A stretch of DNA of 64,000 bases from an uncultured Ulvibacter sp. Lineage in GTDB: Bacteria; Bacteroidota; Bacteroidia; Flavobacteriales; Flavobacteriaceae. The notes below the pieces were generated by a model. The model ran no database searches. It had not been told where the DNA came from and was given only the letters and a program-made list of their open reading frames with translations. A program made the position numbers and the translations under genes. Location: the NCBI GenBank assembly GCA_943789105.1, contig CALSSW010000005.1, forward strand, positions 124,001 to 188,000, in the 5' to 3' direction. How positions within the stretch are numbered: the first letter of the stretch is position 1; every line of letters starts with the position of its first letter. This document shows, one piece after another, positions 8,947 through 33,804 of this stretch.

Positions 8947-10950
8947 GTGTCAAATAATCAGAAGAACATATTAAACCGCTTATCTTTTGTAGCTGGAGGT
9001 ATGTTTCTCTTTGCGCTACTTATTGTTTTTAAACTAATTAATATTCAGTTTGTAGAGGGAGATGTGTATCGTGATTTGGCAGCCCAAGATGCTACCAAAA
9101 ATGTTGTAATACCTGCCAATAGAGGGAATATATATGCAGATGATGGTAGTCTTTTGGCAAGCTCGGTAGCAAAGTATGATATTAGGTTTGATACACAAAC
9201 AGTTACTAAAAAAGATTTTGACGAAAATTTAGTGCCGCTCTCTCAGGGGCTAAGCGATATGTTTGGTAATCCCACTTCTTATTATCAAAACCTATTGCGC
9301 ACCGCAAGGTCGAATAAAAATAGGTTTTTATTAATTGCAAAAAAGCTAGGATACTCAGATTATATTAAAGTTAAAAACATGCCTTTGTTAAAAAAAGGGG
9401 CCAACAGAGGTGGGCTTATTGTAATACCAGATACCGTTCGAGAACATCCAATGGGTAAAATTGCAGAACGTCTAGTGGGTAATCAAGATAGAAAAACTCC
9501 GGGTTATTATGCTGTTGGACTAGAGGGCGCTTATCATAGGCAGCTTAGCGGTAAAGACGGCAGACGTTTAAAGCAAAAGATTTCAAAAGGGAGATGGAAG
9601 CCTGTCTATGATGAAAATGAAATAGAGCCACAAGATGGGTATGATGTAATATCAACCATTAACATAAACATACAAGATATTGCCCATCACGCTCTGTTAA
9701 AACAACTAGAAGAATATCAGGCAGATCACGGAAGTGTCATTGTTATGGAAGTTGCAACGGGCGAAATTAAGGCAGTTGCAAATTTAGGAAAGAGCAAAAA
9801 TGGAGGTTATTACGAGCGCCTTAATTATGCAGTTGGAGAGTCTAGTGAGCCAGGATCAACCTTTAAAACAATTGCAATGGCTGTTGCCTTAGAACACAAG
9901 GTCTTGGATACCGCAACCCTTGTTGATACACAAAAAGGTAAGGTGCGAATGTATGGCCGCACTATTTCAGACTCAAAAAGAGGTGGCTACGGTGAGATAT
10001 CTACGGCAAAAGCTTTTGAAGTTTCATCAAATATTGGTTTTGCAAGAATGATTGATGGAGCTTACAAAGACGATCCAAAAAAATTCACAGACCAAATAAA
10101 AAAATGGAAGCTAGATCAAAAAATAGGCATTCCAATTCTAGGAGAGGGTGTGCCTGTAATTCCTGAGGTGGGAGATGCCCTTTGGAGTAAAAATGCATTG
10201 CCGTCTATTTCTTATGGGTATAATTTAAAGATGACACCACTACAAATTTTAACCTTTTACAATGCCATTGCAAATAACGGCACTATGGTTAGGCCCAGAT
10301 TTGTAAAAGAAATTCGTTCCTGGAAAAAGCAAATAGAAGTTTTTAATACAGAGGTTATTATAGCTAAAATAGCTTCCCAGGCTACCATTGGTAAAATGCA
10401 AGAGATGTTAAAAAACATTGTGGTACGAGGTACTGGTAAAAGCCTGTATTCCAAAAACTTTTCAATGGCAGGAAAAACAGGTACTGCAAGGATAGACTAC
10501 GCAAACCTTGACACTTGGTTGAAAGATAAAAAATATGTGTCCTCGTTTGCTGGTTACTTTCCAGCAGAACAGCCTAAATATTCTTGCATTGTGGTGATAC
10601 ATAAACCATCTGCAGATAAAGGCTACTACGGAGCAGATGTTACAGGGCCAGTTTTTAAACGTATTGCCCAGAAAATATATACAGATAGCCCACTAAAGGC
10701 AGAAATTGCCGCCAAAGATTTATTAGATGTGGTTACTCAAAGAGATTTTGATGGCTACTATAAAAACACCCAACAAGATGCCGCTACCATGCCAAATGTA
10801 AAGGGGATGCCTGCTATGGATGCTATCGCACTACTAGAAAATTTAGGACTTGTGGTGCAATTAAAAGGCAGTGGAAGGGTACAGCGCCAGTCGCTAACAA
10901 TAGGGGCTAAAATTAAAGAAGGTCAAGAAATTATACTCAATTTATCGTGA
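8947..10950 (+). CDS. ftsI: Septal penicillin-binding protein FtsI (PBP3) with PASTA domain
   Basis: Septal peptidoglycan transpeptidase, 667 residues. One N-terminal membrane helix (about 12-32), a PBP dimerisation domain, then a transpeptidase domain with SxxK (S304-T-F-K307), SSN (360-362) and KTG (510-512). A single PASTA domain occupies about 613-667. The start is GTG at 8947, four bases after the ftsL-like stop. The stop overlaps the murE GTG start by four bases (GTGA). Partners are FtsW and the FtsQ/FtsL complex. Confidence 0.95.
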   Translation: MSNNQKNILNRLSFVAGGMFLFALLIVFKLINIQFVEGDVYRDLAAQDATKNVVIPANRGNIYADDGSLLASSVAKYDIRFDTQTVTKKDFDENLVPLSQGLSDMFGNPTSYYQNLLRTARSNKNRFLLIAKKLGYSDYIKVKNMPLLKKGANRGGLIVIPDTVREHPMGKIAERLVGNQDRKTPGYYAVGLEGAYHRQLSGKDGRRLKQKISKGRWKPVYDENEIEPQDGYDVISTININIQDIAHHALLKQLEEYQADHGSVIVMEVATGEIKAVANLGKSKNGGYYERLNYAVGESSEPGSTFKTIAMAVALEHKVLDTATLVDTQKGKVRMYGRTISDSKRGGYGEISTAKAFEVSSNIGFARMIDGAYKDDPKKFTDQIKKWKLDQKIGIPILGEGVPVIPEVGDALWSKNALPSISYGYNLKMTPLQILTFYNAIANNGTMVRPRFVKEIRSWKKQIEVFNTEVIIAKIASQATIGKMQEMLKNIVVRGTGKSLYSKNFSMAGKTGTARIDYANLDTWLKDKKYVSSFAGYFPAEQPKYSCIVVIHKPSADKGYYGADVTGPVFKRIAQKIYTDSPLKAEIAAKDLLDVVTQRDFDGYYKNTQQDAATMPNVKGMPAMDAIALLENLGLVVQLKGSGRVQRQSLTIGAKIKEGQEIILNLS

Positions 10951-25977: not shown

Positions 25978-28845
25978 ATGAAAAAAATTACGCTACTGCT
26001 ATTTATGCTATCCTTTACTTGGTTTAGCTTTGCACAAGTTGGTCTTAACACCATTACTCCAGACGCCTCATCTGCACTAGATATAGAATCTACAACAGGA
26101 GGTATTTTAATTCCTAGACTTTCAGAGTCTCAGCGTGATGCCATTGCATTGCCTGCCACAGGACTCATGATTTATCAAACAGATAAGAACCCTGGTTTTT
26201 ATTTTTATAGCGGTACTTCCTGGACAAAGATTAATGGCGCAACAGGCCCACAAGGTGTATTTGGTGGCGCTTCATTTGAGTATAAATATGGTGGTATAGG
26301 GCCACTTTTATCTGATGTTGATAATGGACTTGTAAGGTTTTTAGACAGTGATACTCAAAACTCAGCAATCCAGCTTCAGTTTTCTGAATTAGACATAAAT
26401 GGGAGCAGTGTTTTTAGCTTTATTGAGATGCTTAGCCAGACACAATCAACTACAAAAGGTGTGGTAAGGCTTGTTGATAAGTTAGATTCTTCCAAAAATT
26501 TACAATTTAAAATAACCAATATTGATTTTACAAATGCTACTGGTTCTTCAGCACCGGGGTATTTTATATTCGATGTTGAAAATGTAGCCTCATCTTCCTC
26601 CAATCCATTTAGTGATTTTGCATCATATACTCCTGTAGTTATGACCTACTCTATATCTGGATCTGACGGATTGCAGGGCCCTCAGGGCCCTCAGGGTTCA
26701 CAAGGAGACCAAGGTATCCAAGGCGAGCAAGGTCCAGAGGGACTGCAAGGAATACAAGGTAATCAAGGAGAGCAAGGAATTCAAGGCCCAATTGGTTTAA
26801 CAGGTCTTACAGGCCCATCAGGGCAAGATGGTGCCAATGGTATAAATGGAGTAGACGGCGCTCAAGGACAAACTGGAGCTACAGGCCCACAGGGTCCTCA
26901 AGGAGAGCAGGGTATACAGGGTATTCAAGGCCCAATTGGTTTAACCGGTGTAACTGGTCCATCAGGGCAAGATGGTGCCAATGGTATAGATGGAGGAGAT
27001 GGTCCTCAAGGACAAACCGGTGCTACAGGCCCGCAAGGTCCACAAGGAGAGCAGGGTATACAAGGTATTCAAGGCCCAATTGGTTTAACAGGTGTAACCG
27101 GCCCATCAGGGCAAGATGGAGCCAATGGTATAGATGGAGTAGATGGCGCTCAAGGACAAACTGGAGCCACAGGCCCGCAGGGTATACAGGGTGAGCAGGG
27201 TATACAGGGTGCTCAAGGCCCAATTGGTTTAACAGGTGTAACCGGCCCATCAGGGCAAGATGGAGCCGATGGTATAGATGGAGTAGATGGCGAAGATGGC
27301 GCTCAAGGCCCTACTGGAACCACAGGCCCACAAGGTGCTCAAGGAGAGCAAGGGATACAGGGCCCAATTGGTTTAACAGGTCCAGCAGGGCAGGATGGTG
27401 CCGATGGTATAGATGGTATAGATGGAGCTCAGGGTCCTACAGGCCCCACAGGCCTGCAGGGTCCTCAAGGAATTGTTGGACCAGATGGCCAGTCTGCATA
27501 TCAAATTTGGCTGTCGCGTGGTAATACAGGAACTGAGGCAGACTTTATTGCATCATTAACAGGTCCTACTGGAGCCACCGGCCCGCAGGGTGCTCAAGGA
27601 GAGCAGGGAGTTCAAGGCCCAATTGGTGTAACCGGTCCATCAGGGCAAGATGGAGCCAATGGTATAGATGGAGTAGATGGCGCTCAAGGACAAACTGGAG
27701 CTACAGGCCCACAGGGTTCTCAGGGTGAGCAAGGAGTTCAAGGCCCAATTGGATTAACAGGTTTAACCGGCCCACAGGGTGATCAAGGTGAAGATTCTAC
27801 TGTTCCAGGACCATCTGGTCCTCAAGGCGAAACTGGTCCAGCAGGTGCTACAGGAGTGGCAGGCCCAACGGGTCCTCCAGGATCACAAGGTGCTCCTGGT
27901 AATGATGGTATTGATGGGGAAAATGGAGAAGATGGTCTTTCTGCCTATGAAATTTGGATTAATGCCGGAAATACGGGCAGTGAAGCAGATTTTTTAGCAT
28001 CGCTTACTGGTCCTGCAGGTGCAGACGGAGTTGATGGAAGTTTTCCAGTTGCAAACAATCAGGGAGACATGTTGTATTGGGATGGTAATGAATGGGCATT
28101 AATTGAGAATGGACAAACAGGAAATATATTATATTTTTGTGATGGAGTTCCAAAGTGGGGCCCTTGTGATGGTGGAGAAGACCCTGCAGACCCTGCAGAC
28201 CCACAAATAGAAAGTGAAAGTGCGCTTGCATATGAACCAAATAACTTTGTGCGTTTTAATAACATTCCACAATACGATAACTTGAGTTCTATTACTGTCG
28301 AATTTTGGGTCTTTAAAAATAACCACCAGGATGAACATATTATTGGTACAGAGTATTATGATACAGGATGGAGTGTAAATGGCCAAACTAATAACAGTAT
28401 AGCAAAATTGGGAGGGCTTAGCGTACCCAACAGTTCTGAGGTTTTTATACCCCTTGGAGAGTGGGTTCACATTGTGCTTCAATATGACGGCTCATTGTCT
28501 GAAAATAATATAAAATTCTTTATTAATGGTGAAATCAAATATCAAGAATCTGGATTCCCAGATGAAATAGGAGATGGAGGAAGTATTGCGATTAATAGAC
28601 ATTCATGGAATGGTGGCGTTTCATCAAGACTCTCAGGTAAATTAGATGAAGTTAGGATTTCAAACATTGCTCGTTACTCTGAAAACTTTACACCATCAAC
28701 TAATCAACTCCAAAATGATAATAATACATTGTTACTTTTAAACTTTGAGACAACTTCAAGTTCTTCAAACCAAGTTATTGATTCATCTGATTTTCAAAAT
28801 CATGGTAATGTGACCGGTGAAATAAGTTACACACCTAGAAATTAA
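25978..28845 (+). CDS. Collagen-like repeat surface protein with LamG-like end
   Basis: A 955-residue exported protein. Signal peptide (1-20, ending SFA), N-terminal module shared with the protein at 23939 (21-85), an unassigned region (about 95-228), then a Gly-X-Y tract (about 230-686) with GPQGPQGEQG, GPIGLTG and DGANGIDG units. The tract is broken twice by SAY(Q/E)IW...GNTG(T/S)EADFLASLTG (about 506 and 655). After a linker (NQGDMLYWDGNEW) and Asp/Pro repeats, about 745-955 looks like a concanavalin/LamG-type lectin domain (SITVEFWVFKN, GEWVHIVLQYDG, GKLDEVRISNIARY). No sorting domain is evident. Likely a fibrous adhesin; ligand unknown. Confidence 0.88.
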   Translation: MKKITLLLFMLSFTWFSFAQVGLNTITPDASSALDIESTTGGILIPRLSESQRDAIALPATGLMIYQTDKNPGFYFYSGTSWTKINGATGPQGVFGGASFEYKYGGIGPLLSDVDNGLVRFLDSDTQNSAIQLQFSELDINGSSVFSFIEMLSQTQSTTKGVVRLVDKLDSSKNLQFKITNIDFTNATGSSAPGYFIFDVENVASSSSNPFSDFASYTPVVMTYSISGSDGLQGPQGPQGSQGDQGIQGEQGPEGLQGIQGNQGEQGIQGPIGLTGLTGPSGQDGANGINGVDGAQGQTGATGPQGPQGEQGIQGIQGPIGLTGVTGPSGQDGANGIDGGDGPQGQTGATGPQGPQGEQGIQGIQGPIGLTGVTGPSGQDGANGIDGVDGAQGQTGATGPQGIQGEQGIQGAQGPIGLTGVTGPSGQDGADGIDGVDGEDGAQGPTGTTGPQGAQGEQGIQGPIGLTGPAGQDGADGIDGIDGAQGPTGPTGLQGPQGIVGPDGQSAYQIWLSRGNTGTEADFIASLTGPTGATGPQGAQGEQGVQGPIGVTGPSGQDGANGIDGVDGAQGQTGATGPQGSQGEQGVQGPIGLTGLTGPQGDQGEDSTVPGPSGPQGETGPAGATGVAGPTGPPGSQGAPGNDGIDGENGEDGLSAYEIWINAGNTGSEADFLASLTGPAGADGVDGSFPVANNQGDMLYWDGNEWALIENGQTGNILYFCDGVPKWGPCDGGEDPADPADPQIESESALAYEPNNFVRFNNIPQYDNLSSITVEFWVFKNNHQDEHIIGTEYYDTGWSVNGQTNNSIAKLGGLSVPNSSEVFIPLGEWVHIVLQYDGSLSENNIKFFINGEIKYQESGFPDEIGDGGSIAINRHSWNGGVSSRLSGKLDEVRISNIARYSENFTPSTNQLQNDNNTLLLLNFETTSSSSNQVIDSSDFQNHGNVTGEISYTPRN
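26785..27504 (+). repeat. 144-bp tandem repeats in the collagen-like gene
   Basis: The block starting GGCCCAATTGG recurs at 26785, 26929, 27073, 27217 and 27361, exactly 144 bp (48 residues, 16 Gly-X-Y triplets) apart, with few changes; further partial copies start at 27616 and 27742. Such arrays vary in copy number by slippage and are prone to misassembly. Confidence 0.92.
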
Positions 28846-29783: not shown

Positions 29784-30179
29784 CTACTGTTTTTCAAACT
29801 CCTCAACAGCGCTAGTGAGCTCTTTACCCGTGTTTGGATACAAGTAACCAGCAATAAGGGTTCCTATACCAATAAGCCCCACCAAACAGCCAACACCTTT
29901 AAGTATTGATCCTAAAAAAAATACACCAAGGCAAAAAAGGCCCATGCCCACAAAGGTTGTGATTACTCCGCTTCTTCTATAATCTATGGGTTCCTTTTTT
30001 CTTTCTTCAAAAATAGCCATTAGCTTTTCTATTTTATCTGGGTCATTCAAACTCTTTGAGATCTCTACAGCTGTTTCTCTTTTTTCTTTACCCTCTAAAT
30101 ACTGCCAATAAAATGCAGCTAGTGGAATGATAATTCCTGTTAGCATTCCTAAAACGGGTATAATAATTTCTGCATTCAT
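29784..30179 (-). CDS. Small membrane protein paired with an XRE regulator
   Basis: A 131-residue protein with one N-terminal membrane segment (about 4-25), a charged cytoplasmic middle (about 28-68, EGKEKRETAVEIS, KIEKLMAIFEERK), and two more hydrophobic segments (about 70-90 and 93-113). The form resembles DUF6249-type membrane proteins, but I do not assign a function. It is the first gene of the operon with the XRE regulator and may be the factor whose level the regulator controls. Confidence 0.75.
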   Translation of the reverse strand: MNAEIIIPVLGMLTGIIIPLAAFYWQYLEGKEKRETAVEISKSLNDPDKIEKLMAIFEERKKEPIDYRRSGVITTFVGMGLFCLGVFFLGSILKGVGCLVGLIGIGTLIAGYLYPNTGKELTSAVEEFEKQ

Positions 30180-30325: not shown

Positions 30326-30988
30326 TTAAGAGGCCAAAAGCGCTTTAAGGTCTGTAATGGTTTTGGTAGGATCTTCAGATTTAAAAACATAACTACCCGC
30401 CACTAGTACATCTGCTCCAGCATCTGCAAGTTGTTTGGCGTTTTTACTGGTTACCCCGCCATCAATTTCTATGATGGTACTGGCTCCTTTTCTATTAATT
30501 AATTCTTTTAAAGCAATTACTTTGTCATAGGTGTTTTCTATAAAGCTCTGGCCGCCAAAACCAGGGTTTACGCTCATAAGGCACACAAGGTCTATGTCTT
30601 GTATGGTATCTTCTAGAAGTGATATATTGGTGTGTGGGTTTAAAGCAACACCAGCTTTCATACCTTCAGCTTTTATAGCCTGCAGGGTTCTGTGCAAATG
30701 TGTACAAGCCTCATAGTGTACCGTTAGGATATCTGCACCTAGATTTTTAAAGGTTGAAATATACCTATCTGGATCCACAATCATAAGATGTACATCTATA
30801 GTTTTTGTTGCATGTTTTGCAATATCACGCAATACAGGCATACCAAAAGAAATATTAGGCACAAAAACACCGTCCATGATATCTATATGAAACCAATCTG
30901 CATCACTAGAGTTGATCATCTCAATATCACGTTGTAAGTTGGCAAAATCTGCAGCTAAAACTGATGGGGCTATAAGAGTGTGGCTCAT
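30326..30988 (-). CDS. rpe: Ribulose-phosphate 3-epimerase
   Basis: Interconverts ribulose-5-phosphate and xylulose-5-phosphate in the pentose phosphate pathway. 220-residue TIM barrel with SVLAADFANL, the metal ligands in FHIDIMDGVFVPN (His, Asp), VHLMIVDP, MSVNPGFGGQ and EIDGGV, all as in Rpe. Its ATG overlaps the stop of the upstream BLUF gene by four bases (ATGA). Confidence 0.96.
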   Translation of the reverse strand: MSHTLIAPSVLAADFANLQRDIEMINSSDADWFHIDIMDGVFVPNISFGMPVLRDIAKHATKTIDVHLMIVDPDRYISTFKNLGADILTVHYEACTHLHRTLQAIKAEGMKAGVALNPHTNISLLEDTIQDIDLVCLMSVNPGFGGQSFIENTYDKVIALKELINRKGASTIIEIDGGVTSKNAKQLADAGADVLVAGSYVFKSEDPTKTITDLKALLAS

Positions 30989-31386
30989 GGTAGAAGTAAA
31001 AATGGTTGTATTAAACGTTGAATTTTTTCTGAGGTACTAACTTTATTTTCTTTTAAATAGGCGTCTATGGTAGCCAATTGCTCTGCAGTACGAACAATAT
31101 TAAAGTCTGTACTATAGTTAGAAAATAAAGCTTTTTGTTTGGGTCTATTGATAATCTCAAAAATAGAATGATGCCTTGGGTCGTTTTTTATTTTATTCTC
31201 ATACAGTGGCATGATGATATCTTTATCTCCCTCTAAAACCTGGAAAAAATTACCAAGCTCATATAGTAATATACCTGTTACATTTCTAAGGCTATTATTG
31301 GTATAGGTTTTATTGTATATTCCCTCCAGAGCTTCTTTTTCAAGACCCTCAGCGGCTTTACTGGAATAACAAATGGTATGAATCAT
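30985..31386 (-). CDS. BLUF-domain blue-light sensor
   Basis: Flavin-based blue-light photoreceptor domain of 133 residues, with almost nothing beyond the domain. The key residues align with AppA: Y7 (ICYSSKA), N31 (TNNSLRNVTGIL) and Q49 (FFQVLEGD), at the same 24 and 42 spacing as AppA Y21/N45/Q63. The semi-conserved Trp is replaced (FSNYSTDF). No fused output domain, so it must signal by protein contact. It is translationally coupled to rpe. Confidence 0.9.
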   Translation of the reverse strand: MIHTICYSSKAAEGLEKEALEGIYNKTYTNNSLRNVTGILLYELGNFFQVLEGDKDIIMPLYENKIKNDPRHHSIFEIINRPKQKALFSNYSTDFNIVRTAEQLATIDAYLKENKVSTSEKIQRLIQPFLLLP

Positions 31387-31530
31387 CTTGTGGGCTTTTA
31401 ATATACTTACAAGTTCATAAAGGTAAGAAAAAAACCTGCTTTGTTGGCCAGGTATTTATCTATCTGTCAATAAATCAATAATTCACTGATTTAATCTTAG
31501 GTTATTACCTGTTAATGAGTATGTTGGACA

Positions 31531-31567
31531 AAAAAAAGCGCCTTTGGTATACCAAAGGCGCTTTGCT
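31531..31567 (-). terminator. Intrinsic terminator after pnp
   Basis: A 30-base perfect palindrome (31535-31564) with arms AAAGCGCCTTTGG and CCAAAGGCGCTTT; on the minus strand it ends in seven T. It lies 24 bases after the pnp stop. Confidence 0.85.
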
Positions 31568-31590: not shown

Positions 31591-33804
31591 TTAGTCTCTT
31601 TTTCTTCTGTCATCTCTTCTTGGAGGACGACGATCATTGTTACGTTCTCTAGGAGCTGGTGCTACGTAACCTTCTGGCTTTTCCATAAGGGCCTTACGAG
31701 ACACTTTCTCTTTTCTAGTACGTTTGTCAAGACCAAAGTACTTCACATCAAATACATCACCCATGTTTACCACATCGCTAACGTTTTCTGTACGTTCCCA
31801 AGCTAGCTCAGATACGTGTAATAATACTTCGTTTCCTGGTGCTTCCATATATTCAACAACAGCACCAAAATCTAACATTTTGATTACTTTCACCTCATAC
31901 ACAGAACCTACTGTAGGCTTAAAGGTAATAGAGTCAATCTTGGCCAGTACTGCGTCAATTCCTTCTTGCCCTGTTCCTAGGATTTCAACAATTCCCTCTT
32001 CTGTAACTGGATCTTCATTAATAACAATGGTAGTACCCGTTTCTTTTTGAAGTTCTTGAATTACTTTTCCTCCTGGTCCTATCAGTGCGCCAATAAATTC
32101 ATTAGCGATACGAACACCTACCATTTTTGGAGCGTATTCTTTCACGTCTTCTCTTGGAGTTGCAATTGCATCCGTTAATTTTCCTAGGATATGAATACGT
32201 CCATCTCTTGCTTGCTTTAATGCTGCAACTAGAATTTCATAGCTCAATCCTTTTACTTTAATATCCATCTGGCAAGCTGTAATTCCATCTGCCGTTCCAG
32301 TTACTTTAAAGTCCATATCTCCTAGGTGATCCTCATCACCAAGAATATCAGAAAGTACTGCATATTTTCCAGTATCTGCATCAGAGATAAGTCCCATTGC
32401 AATACCAGAAACTGGTTTTTTCATTTGGATACCTGCATCCATCATTGCCATTGTTCCAGCACATACTGTTGCCATAGATGAAGAACCGTTAGATTCTAAT
32501 ACCTCAGACACTACACGTACTGTGTAAGGACAATCATCAGGAATCATTCCTTTTAAACCACGCTGTGCAAGGTTACCATGTCCAACTTCTCTACGAGAGG
32601 TTCCACGAATAGGTCTTGCTTCACCTGTACAAAAAGGAGGGAAGTTATAATGTAGGTAGAAGCTTTCTTCTCCCTCGTAAGATGGCATATCAATTTTGTT
32701 GGCATCTCTAGAAGTTCCTAAAGTTACTGTAGCAAGTGCCTGTGTTTCTCCACGGGTAAAAACTGCAGATCCGTGTACAGAAGGCAAGTAATCAATCTCA
32801 CACCATATATCACGTATTTCATCAGTCTTACGACCATCTAAACGCAATCCTTCGTTTACAGTTAGATCACGAACAGCTGCTTTTTCAGCCTTGCGGTAGT
32901 AGTCAGAAACCAAATCGCCAAACTCTTCCATTTCTTCTTCAGTGAAAGAAGCTTTTACTTCTTCCTTAATTTCTGCAAATGCAGCGCTACGTTCTTTTTT
33001 AGTAGATCCAGCTTTAGCCACTGCATATACTTTGTCATACGCCATATCATGAACTCTTTTTACAAGATCTTCGTTGTCTGGCTCTTCTTCGTAATCACGT
33101 ACTTCTTTTCTTCCGAAAGCGTCAGCTAAACGGTGTTGTGCAGCAATTTGAACTTTAATAGCCTCATGTGCAAACTTAATAGCCTCGATCATTTCTTCTT
33201 CAGAAATCTCATCCATTTCACCTTCTACCATCATCACAGAATCTGCAGAAGCTCCAATCATCATATCGATGTCAGACTCTTCTAATTGTGCTCTTGTAGG
33301 GTTTATAACAAACTCACCATTGATACGTCCCACTCTAGCCTCAGAGATAGCACATTCAAAAGGGAAATCTGATAGTTGGATTGCTGCAGATGCAGCAAGT
33401 CCTGCCATTGCATCTGGCATAACATCATCGTCATGAGACATTAACTGTATCATCACCTGTGTTTCTGCGCTGTAGTTCTTTGGAAATAATGGGCGTAATA
33501 CACGATCCACTAAACGCATCGTTAGTACTTCACCATCACTTGGGCGTGCTTCTCTTTTGAAAAATCCACCAGGATAACGTCCTGCAGCTGCAAACTTCTC
33601 TCTGTAATCAACCGTTAGGGGTAAAAAAGGTAGATCTTTTTGCTCGTAGTTTGAAACTACGGTACAAAGCATCATACATTTTCCAGACTGTACCACGACA
33701 GATCCGTGTGCTTGTTTTGCTAATTTTCCGGTTTCGATAGTAATCTCTCTACCATCACCAAGGTCAATGACCTCTTTAAATACTTTAGGTATCATATTTT
33801 TCAT
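31591..33804 (-). CDS. pnp: Polyribonucleotide nucleotidyltransferase (PNPase)
   Basis: Phosphorolytic 3'-5' exoribonuclease. 737 residues: two RNase PH-like domains (about 10-230 and 330-545, with [12 protein letters not shown] and the second-core [18 protein letters not shown]), a KH domain (about 575-635, [16 protein letters not shown]), an S1 domain (about 645-712) and an Arg/Asp-rich tail. The start at 33804 or the ATG at 33795 (MIPKVFKEV) are both possible; the latter is closer to the usual family start. It follows rpsO, as in many bacteria, but with a terminator between. Confidence 0.96.

Follow-up and report, generated by a model that had tools for sequence, protein, structure and literature searches.

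The described systems closest to the locus reported here are photoreceptors of the BLUF family, whose outputs are, to our knowledge, second messengers, transcription or motility. PixD (Slr1694, Tll0078) is a short stand-alone BLUF protein with a response regulator-like partner, PixE, and BlsA of Acinetobacter, also short and stand-alone (6w6z, 6w72), is known for transcription regulators as partners, not for a metabolic enzyme. Control of an enzyme by a BLUF domain is found in the photoactivated adenylyl cyclases (OaPAC and bacterial PAC), in which the cyclase is covalently joined to the sensor. Ribulose-phosphate 3-epimerase (Rpe) is a mononuclear iron enzyme that is damaged by H2O2 in E. coli, and the accessible part of the study that says so names no light sensor for it (PMC8115020). 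We describe here a BLUF-rpe arrangement that is a real, conserved gene pair, undescribed in the open-licence PMC papers searched. An earlier note on this DNA had known of no described BLUF-Rpe system, and our literature search, which covered open-licence PMC papers only, likewise showed none among the matches listed; a paper on a deep-sea BLUF pathway holds nothing on such an arrangement in the parts examined (PMC8805636).

The pair lies on the minus strand of the window, by which we mean the whole 64,000-nucleotide stretch of DNA that was analysed, together with the following features:

29784-30179, minus strand: gene for a small DUF6249 protein, downstream of rpe
30326-30988, minus strand: rpe, ribulose-phosphate 3-epimerase, 220 aa, with H34, D36, H67 and D176 present
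30985-30988, minus strand: ATGA overlap of the rpe start codon and the BLUF stop codon, read from the sequence
30985-31386, minus strand: BLUF gene, encoding a stand-alone photoreceptor of 133 aa that belongs to the rpe-linked subfamily of Flavobacteriaceae, with Y7, N31 and Q49, and with Y91 and T93 replacing Trp and Met
31158-31165, minus strand: TATTTTTG within the coding region of BLUF, 177 nt ahead of the start of rpe
31418-31425, minus strand: TACCTTTA, matching TAnnTTTG, the sigma-A -7 box, in degenerate form, 39 nt ahead of the start of BLUF
31535-31564, minus strand: intrinsic terminator between pnp and BLUF, from terminator prediction
31591-33804, minus strand: pnp, polynucleotide phosphorylase, upstream of BLUF; other genera have rpoD between pnp and BLUF

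The earlier note had read a complete BLUF domain with Y7, N31 and Q49 at this place, and this is borne out. The protein is a full match to the Pfam family (PF04940, 76.3 bits against a cut-off of 25), the three residues correspond to the flavin-proximal Tyr, Asn and Gln of BLUF photoreceptors, the AlphaFold model has a BLUF fold (pLDDT 87.9, pTM 0.82), and all 50 Foldseek matches listed for this model are BLUF proteins. In five comparisons with close relatives the gene has dN/dS values of 0.023-0.077, which indicate that it is under purifying selection; the full Pfam match and the low dN/dS rule out chance similarity or a pseudogene. Like PixD, the window protein is short, has two C-terminal helices in its model and keeps the Tyr, Asn and Gln, and its best Foldseek matches are Tll0078/TePixD (1x0p, 8i98), which are short cyanobacterial BLUF proteins. 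Unlike PixD, it lacks the fifth-strand Trp and Met, and it is linked to rpe instead of a pixE-like response regulator. With BlsA it shares the short stand-alone form. Its best PDB sequence matches are the photoactivated adenylyl cyclases (5mbj and relatives); in contrast to their covalent arrangement, however, the window has two separate overlapping genes and an epimerase, and control of the enzyme by the sensor is our hypothesis here.

Rpe of the window is likewise a full family match (Ribul_P_3_epim, PF00834, 258.1 bits), and its gene has dN/dS values of 0.017-0.067 in the same five comparisons. H34, D36, H67 and D176, which we take to be the metal and catalytic residues, are kept in 90 of 90 Rpe rows. 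The enzyme thus resembles the mononuclear-iron epimerases already described. The four-base overlap of the two reading frames is as the earlier note had given it. Such an overlap is ordinary when taken alone, two cell-wall genes of the same window overlapping likewise (end at 10950, start at 10947); what stands out is its recurrence across genera. Elsewhere the window encodes, at 25978-28845, a protein of 955 aa that combines collagen triple-helix repeats with a laminin-G-like domain.

Within the window's genus, a profile search found PF04940 in 11 of 11 genomes, each with one BLUF gene directly upstream of rpe on the same strand; 11 of the 13 genus BLUF loci are beside rpe, the remaining two being second BLUFs, and the DUF6249 gene follows rpe in three of the 13 (L001, L008, L009). 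A BLUF match was present in 115 of the 299 genomes of a family sample. The family search for rpe covered only genomes with some BLUF match and located the gene in the 112 of these that were not already known. Of the 112, 50 have a BLUF gene on the strand of rpe and no more than 3 kb upstream of it (50/107 among genomes with a listed BLUF place, five having none), a count that includes one broken BLUF (G153, in-frame stop) and three cases with inserts of about 0.2-1.1 kb (G147, G250, G109). Reversed order or strand was found in none of the 50, and two of the five genomes without a listed place (G018, G061) carry BLUF remnants upstream of rpe. These 50 genomes represent 41 genera, or 42 with that of the window. 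The earlier note had allowed that the adjacency might be unique to its strain, which the survey of BLUF-rpe neighbourhoods refutes for the sampled Flavobacteriaceae; recurrence across the genus and the family sample also rules out a strain-specific accident. In L049, L065 and L117/L132 a broken or partial BLUF copy separates rpoD from an rpe whose reading frame is still present.

The linked proteins form a subfamily that can be told apart by its residues. Sorting by gene position only gave 64 full-length linked and 35 unlinked BLUFs, four short pieces of the 103 being left out. Linked proteins have Y7 in 64/64, N31 in 64/64 and Q49 in 63/64 cases (a single Q49E). Position 91 is Tyr or Phe in all 64, whereas Trp occupies it in 33 of the 35 unlinked proteins, and Met at position 93 occurs in 0/64 linked against 33/35 unlinked ones; the strand-5 Met of PixD-type proteins, and the semi-conserved Trp, are thus absent from the linked BLUFs. 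The two unlinked exceptions (L122 and L123, 3.3 and 9.6 kb from rpe) belong to the linked subfamily, and a BLUF tree of 111 columns joins them with the 64 on one branch (SH-aLRT 97). An enlarged set of 142 distinct subfamily BLUFs, which contains the 64, was picked by model score, so that the comparison is partly circular: Trp91 and Met93 are missing in 142/142 of these and present in 33/33 others. Ser or Thr is found at position 93 in 34 of 36 tightly linked subfamily BLUFs, and Y7 is missing in only three of the 142 (two Phe, one truncated), all of them dispersed away from rpe. According to the accessible part of one study, the red shift of PixD survives the M93A exchange, but the light-induced response of the protein is lost and the mutant behaves as though locked in its signalling state; Trp91 matters less than Met93 (PMC5899715). 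By analogy with this mutant, the subfamily BLUFs should be photochemically active, and they must either relay their signal by a route other than Met or be locked in a single state.

Outside the family, we checked an order sample and a phylum sample of 395 genomes each, many of which are shared mutually and with the family sample; 2 and 20 genomes, respectively, matched BLUF at the cut-offs used. No rpe was found near these BLUFs in 26 stretches from the 22 genomes (mostly about 1.5 kb on each side), and W-x-M is present in all 26 BLUF places read, with at least one place in each of the 22 genomes. In two of these loci (L265, L267) the linked model beats the unlinked one by 7 bits, yet W-x-M is present. 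The Flavobacterium matches L133-L136, of the same family as the window, also have W-x-M, and it is the unlinked model that gives them the higher score. Judging from the family, order and phylum samples, the rpe-linked BLUF clade has to date been found in Flavobacteriaceae alone.

According to the accessible parts of the reports, sigma-A promoters of this phylum have TAnnTTTG as their -7 box, for which F. johnsoniae gave the narrower form TAHHTTTG (PMC9723704, PMC6847099). We scored TAnnTTTG at no more than 70 nt from the rpe start and also counted the strict form. Without an adjacent BLUF, rpe has the box in 26 of 27 loci (25/27 strict), all of which come from genomes having some BLUF match and two of whose genomes enter twice (24/25 distinct). 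Spaced loci, with a spacer of 26-56 nt, have it in 21 of 23 cases (19/23 strict), whereas it is present in only one of 34 tight loci, in which BLUF and rpe touch (0/34 strict); of six more loci, which have longer inserts or remnants and were kept out of the main counts, three have it. Distances from box to rpe in spaced loci are 25-38 nt, which fit the short leaders reported, with a median of 24 bp in the accessible part of the source (PMC9723704). Given that rpe normally has its own box and that this box is missing in the tight group, the pattern suggests that rpe in tight loci, including the window, is the second cistron of a BLUF operon, in which it was probably captured. The translational coupling claimed in the earlier note fits the overlap and goes with the absent rpe box in tight loci.

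What drives such an operon may be sought upstream of BLUF. In tight loci the consensus box is little enriched there over single-base shuffles (8/34 against 3.8 expected), whereas the degenerate TAnnTTTR is enriched (24/34 against 10.7). In the window, TACCTTTA is a candidate promoter of BLUF-rpe, and the predicted terminator separating the pair from pnp suggests that BLUF-rpe begins a transcript of its own. A sigma-70 promoter scan of the window, a promoter type that is wrong for this phylum, gave matches below shuffled expectation. Boxes inside the BLUF genes also exceed the codon-shuffle expectation, in tight loci (17/34 against 7.5) and in spaced ones (11/23 against 4.4), and in tight loci they are concentrated at 144-148 and 177 nt ahead of rpe, where the codons specify conserved residues; the window has one. 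These internal boxes may be codon effects or internal rpe promoters, and TATTTTTG, for which both are possible, is counter-evidence to the BLUF-operon reading.

The commonest gene order is pnp-rpoD-BLUF-rpe, often followed by an AraC-type regulator or by an oxidoreductase that we take to be of the YpdA type. As rpoD and rpe adjoin also without BLUF (e.g. L052, L062, L063, L077, L088, L100), BLUF most likely entered an already existing rpoD-rpe block. Among 75 gaps between directly linked BLUF and rpe genes, 36 are at most 6 nt and 22 of these are -4, shares that are not population estimates since the set includes loci picked by similarity to the window. The gap between rpoD and BLUF is at least 98 nt in all 74 cases measured and below 350 nt in 66 of them. 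Tight and spaced forms are separated by three changes on the BLUF tree and nine on the Rpe tree, which indicates that the independent origins of the tight form are few; among the 34 tight loci, six belong to the window's genus and hardly differ from one another. In the window clade no rpoD lies beside BLUF, the order being pnp, BLUF, rpe, and the search elsewhere turned up nothing but a paralogue with 77% identity to the query RpoD, as also in G002 and G003 (99-100% complete); G001, G006 and G010 of the genus retain rpoD next to BLUF. Where rpoD and rpe have separated, it is rpe that BLUF accompanies in about four cases (the window clade, L113, L230, L233) and rpoD in one or two others (L122, L264), and in L109 and L250 it is split from its neighbours on both sides.

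Some further variation was seen in this region. Several genomes carry two primary-sigma-like rpoD copies, the window clade being without the block copy (cf. G000:C1:656001-656864; G001, G006, G010). Two or three tandem subfamily BLUFs lie between rpoD and rpe in Aquimarina (L235, L236, L241, L244, L246, L248, L251, L258). A protein of about 180-223 aa recurs beside rpoD or BLUF (L192:2556-3224, with relatives in L104, L105, L194, L214 and L218), and its L192 member, the one tested, had no Pfam match.

The genes of BLUF and rpe are conserved, co-directional and touching, as would be expected of a light-regulated enzyme pair. Other results speak against a specific BLUF-Rpe contact. Subfamily BLUFs that sit elsewhere than rpe number 35 of 142 and are nested among the linked ones (8 changes on the tree), and a comparison of their neighbours found no recurrent co-directional partner beyond close relatives. 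Convergent neighbours, e.g. coproporphyrinogen oxidase, were not taken as partners; some are presumably FtsZ- and YchF-like. In the dispersed Aquimarina loci L229, L232, L237 and L249, BLUF is convergent with a neighbour gene and overlaps it by 20-32 nt; that of L232 is coproporphyrinogen III oxidase, and the neighbours in the other three cluster with it. A divergent Rpe type, about 60% identical to that of the window, accounts for seven linked Rpe (L004, L005, L012, L103, L108, L118, L119; branch support 100) whose BLUFs are scattered, and ATGA is found also where this type stands in (L004, L005, L012, L103). In the congeneric genomes G083 and G293 the BLUFs are sisters (support 89) but the Rpe types differ, and ATGA is present in both. 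Divergent Rpe beside scattered or sister BLUFs indicates that in several lineages a new rpe most likely took over the site of the old one while the neighbouring BLUF stayed, which argues against a specific BLUF-Rpe interface. An AlphaFold model of the read-through BLUF-Rpe chain of Gillisia L233 (pTM 0.60, linker pLDDT below 50) is good for Rpe and the BLUF core, poor for the BLUF C-terminal part and the linker, and has no confident interface; since only four alignment rows spanned both proteins, this weighs little either way. The other part of the earlier claim, contact between the proteins or an effect of light on flux, is conjecture: the model gives no confident interface, many related BLUFs are remote from rpe, and the usual other neighbour is rpoD, which is absent from the window.

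Our tentative reading, possible but somewhat short of probable, is that a short BLUF protein of Flavobacteriaceae is made with Rpe and that its light or dark state acts on the enzyme. In the window and its allies, rpe would have given up its own promoter and become the second, overlapping cistron of the BLUF operon, and the coupling of the genes would cause sensor and enzyme to be made together. Bacteroidota are without Shine-Dalgarno sequences according to the accessible part of one report (PMC6847099), which makes termination-reinitiation at ATGA a plausible way for rpe translation to start. The sensor, keeping its flavin triad of Tyr, Asn and Gln, would photoswitch and signal without the Met relay of PixD-type proteins, and its light or dark state might act on Rpe in either direction, by contact or by setting the amount of Rpe, thereby tuning pentose phosphate flux. 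Blue light and its oxidants alter NADPH demand, and with an H2O2-sensitive Rpe such light control would make sense. A more specific form, in which the subfamily binds Rpe or assembles with it during coupled translation and a Met-independent switch via the Ser/Thr93 hydroxyl gates the pathway by light, seems unlikely to us.

The main rival of the hypothesis that light controls Rpe is synteny without function, in which BLUF was inserted into the conserved rpoD-rpe block and inherited there, its overlap with rpe being ordinary compaction and its target unrelated. It would be in keeping with the rpoD-rpe neighbours that have no BLUF between them, the dispersed subfamily BLUFs without rpe nearby, the promoter box retained at spaced loci and the few independent origins of the tight form. 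However, it sits poorly with the loss of a near-universal rpe box in the tight group alone (1/34 against 26/27) and with a BLUF-rpe pair that outlived the loss of the adjacent rpoD, and we judge it somewhat unlikely. That same loss of the box would also follow if rpe had been captured to follow the BLUF promoter, for example under light or stress, with another protein as the real partner of BLUF and no contact with Rpe. The boxes counted upstream of BLUF, above all the degenerate form, and the interchangeable Rpe type would suit this arrangement, but it presumes a regulated promoter for BLUF-rpe, and the adjacency persists in spaced loci although rpe has its own box there; we consider it improbable.

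The usual upstream neighbour of BLUF offers another candidate partner, the primary sigma factor RpoD, for which BLUF would be a light-dependent modulator encoded beside its gene. L122, where BLUF lies 221 nt after rpoD and rpe is 3.3 kb away, is what this would lead one to expect. Yet rpoD and BLUF never come closer than the 98 nt given above, the BLUF-rpe pair is intact in L113, L230 and L233 although rpoD lies 1.4-2.6 kb off, and the window clade keeps BLUF without an adjacent rpoD, an argument softened by the paralogous RpoD that remains; a sigma modulator thus strikes us as very improbable.

Whichever partner applies, a whole subfamily that is naturally without the signalling Met is a test bed for the relay mechanism of BLUF proteins. 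Light control of Rpe, the reading that we tentatively prefer, would carry further. Rhodopsin is present in 72 of the 299 family genomes, but these include only two of the 53 in which BLUF adjoins rpe, G127 and the window's own, against 70 of the 246 others (Fisher p 3e-5, uncorrected for relatedness). As the pair is found mostly in genomes without rhodopsin, its light response, if true, would be distinct from rhodopsin phototrophy, and a dedicated photoreceptor produced together with an enzyme of central metabolism would tie the supply of NADPH and pentoses directly to light in a widespread bacterial family.
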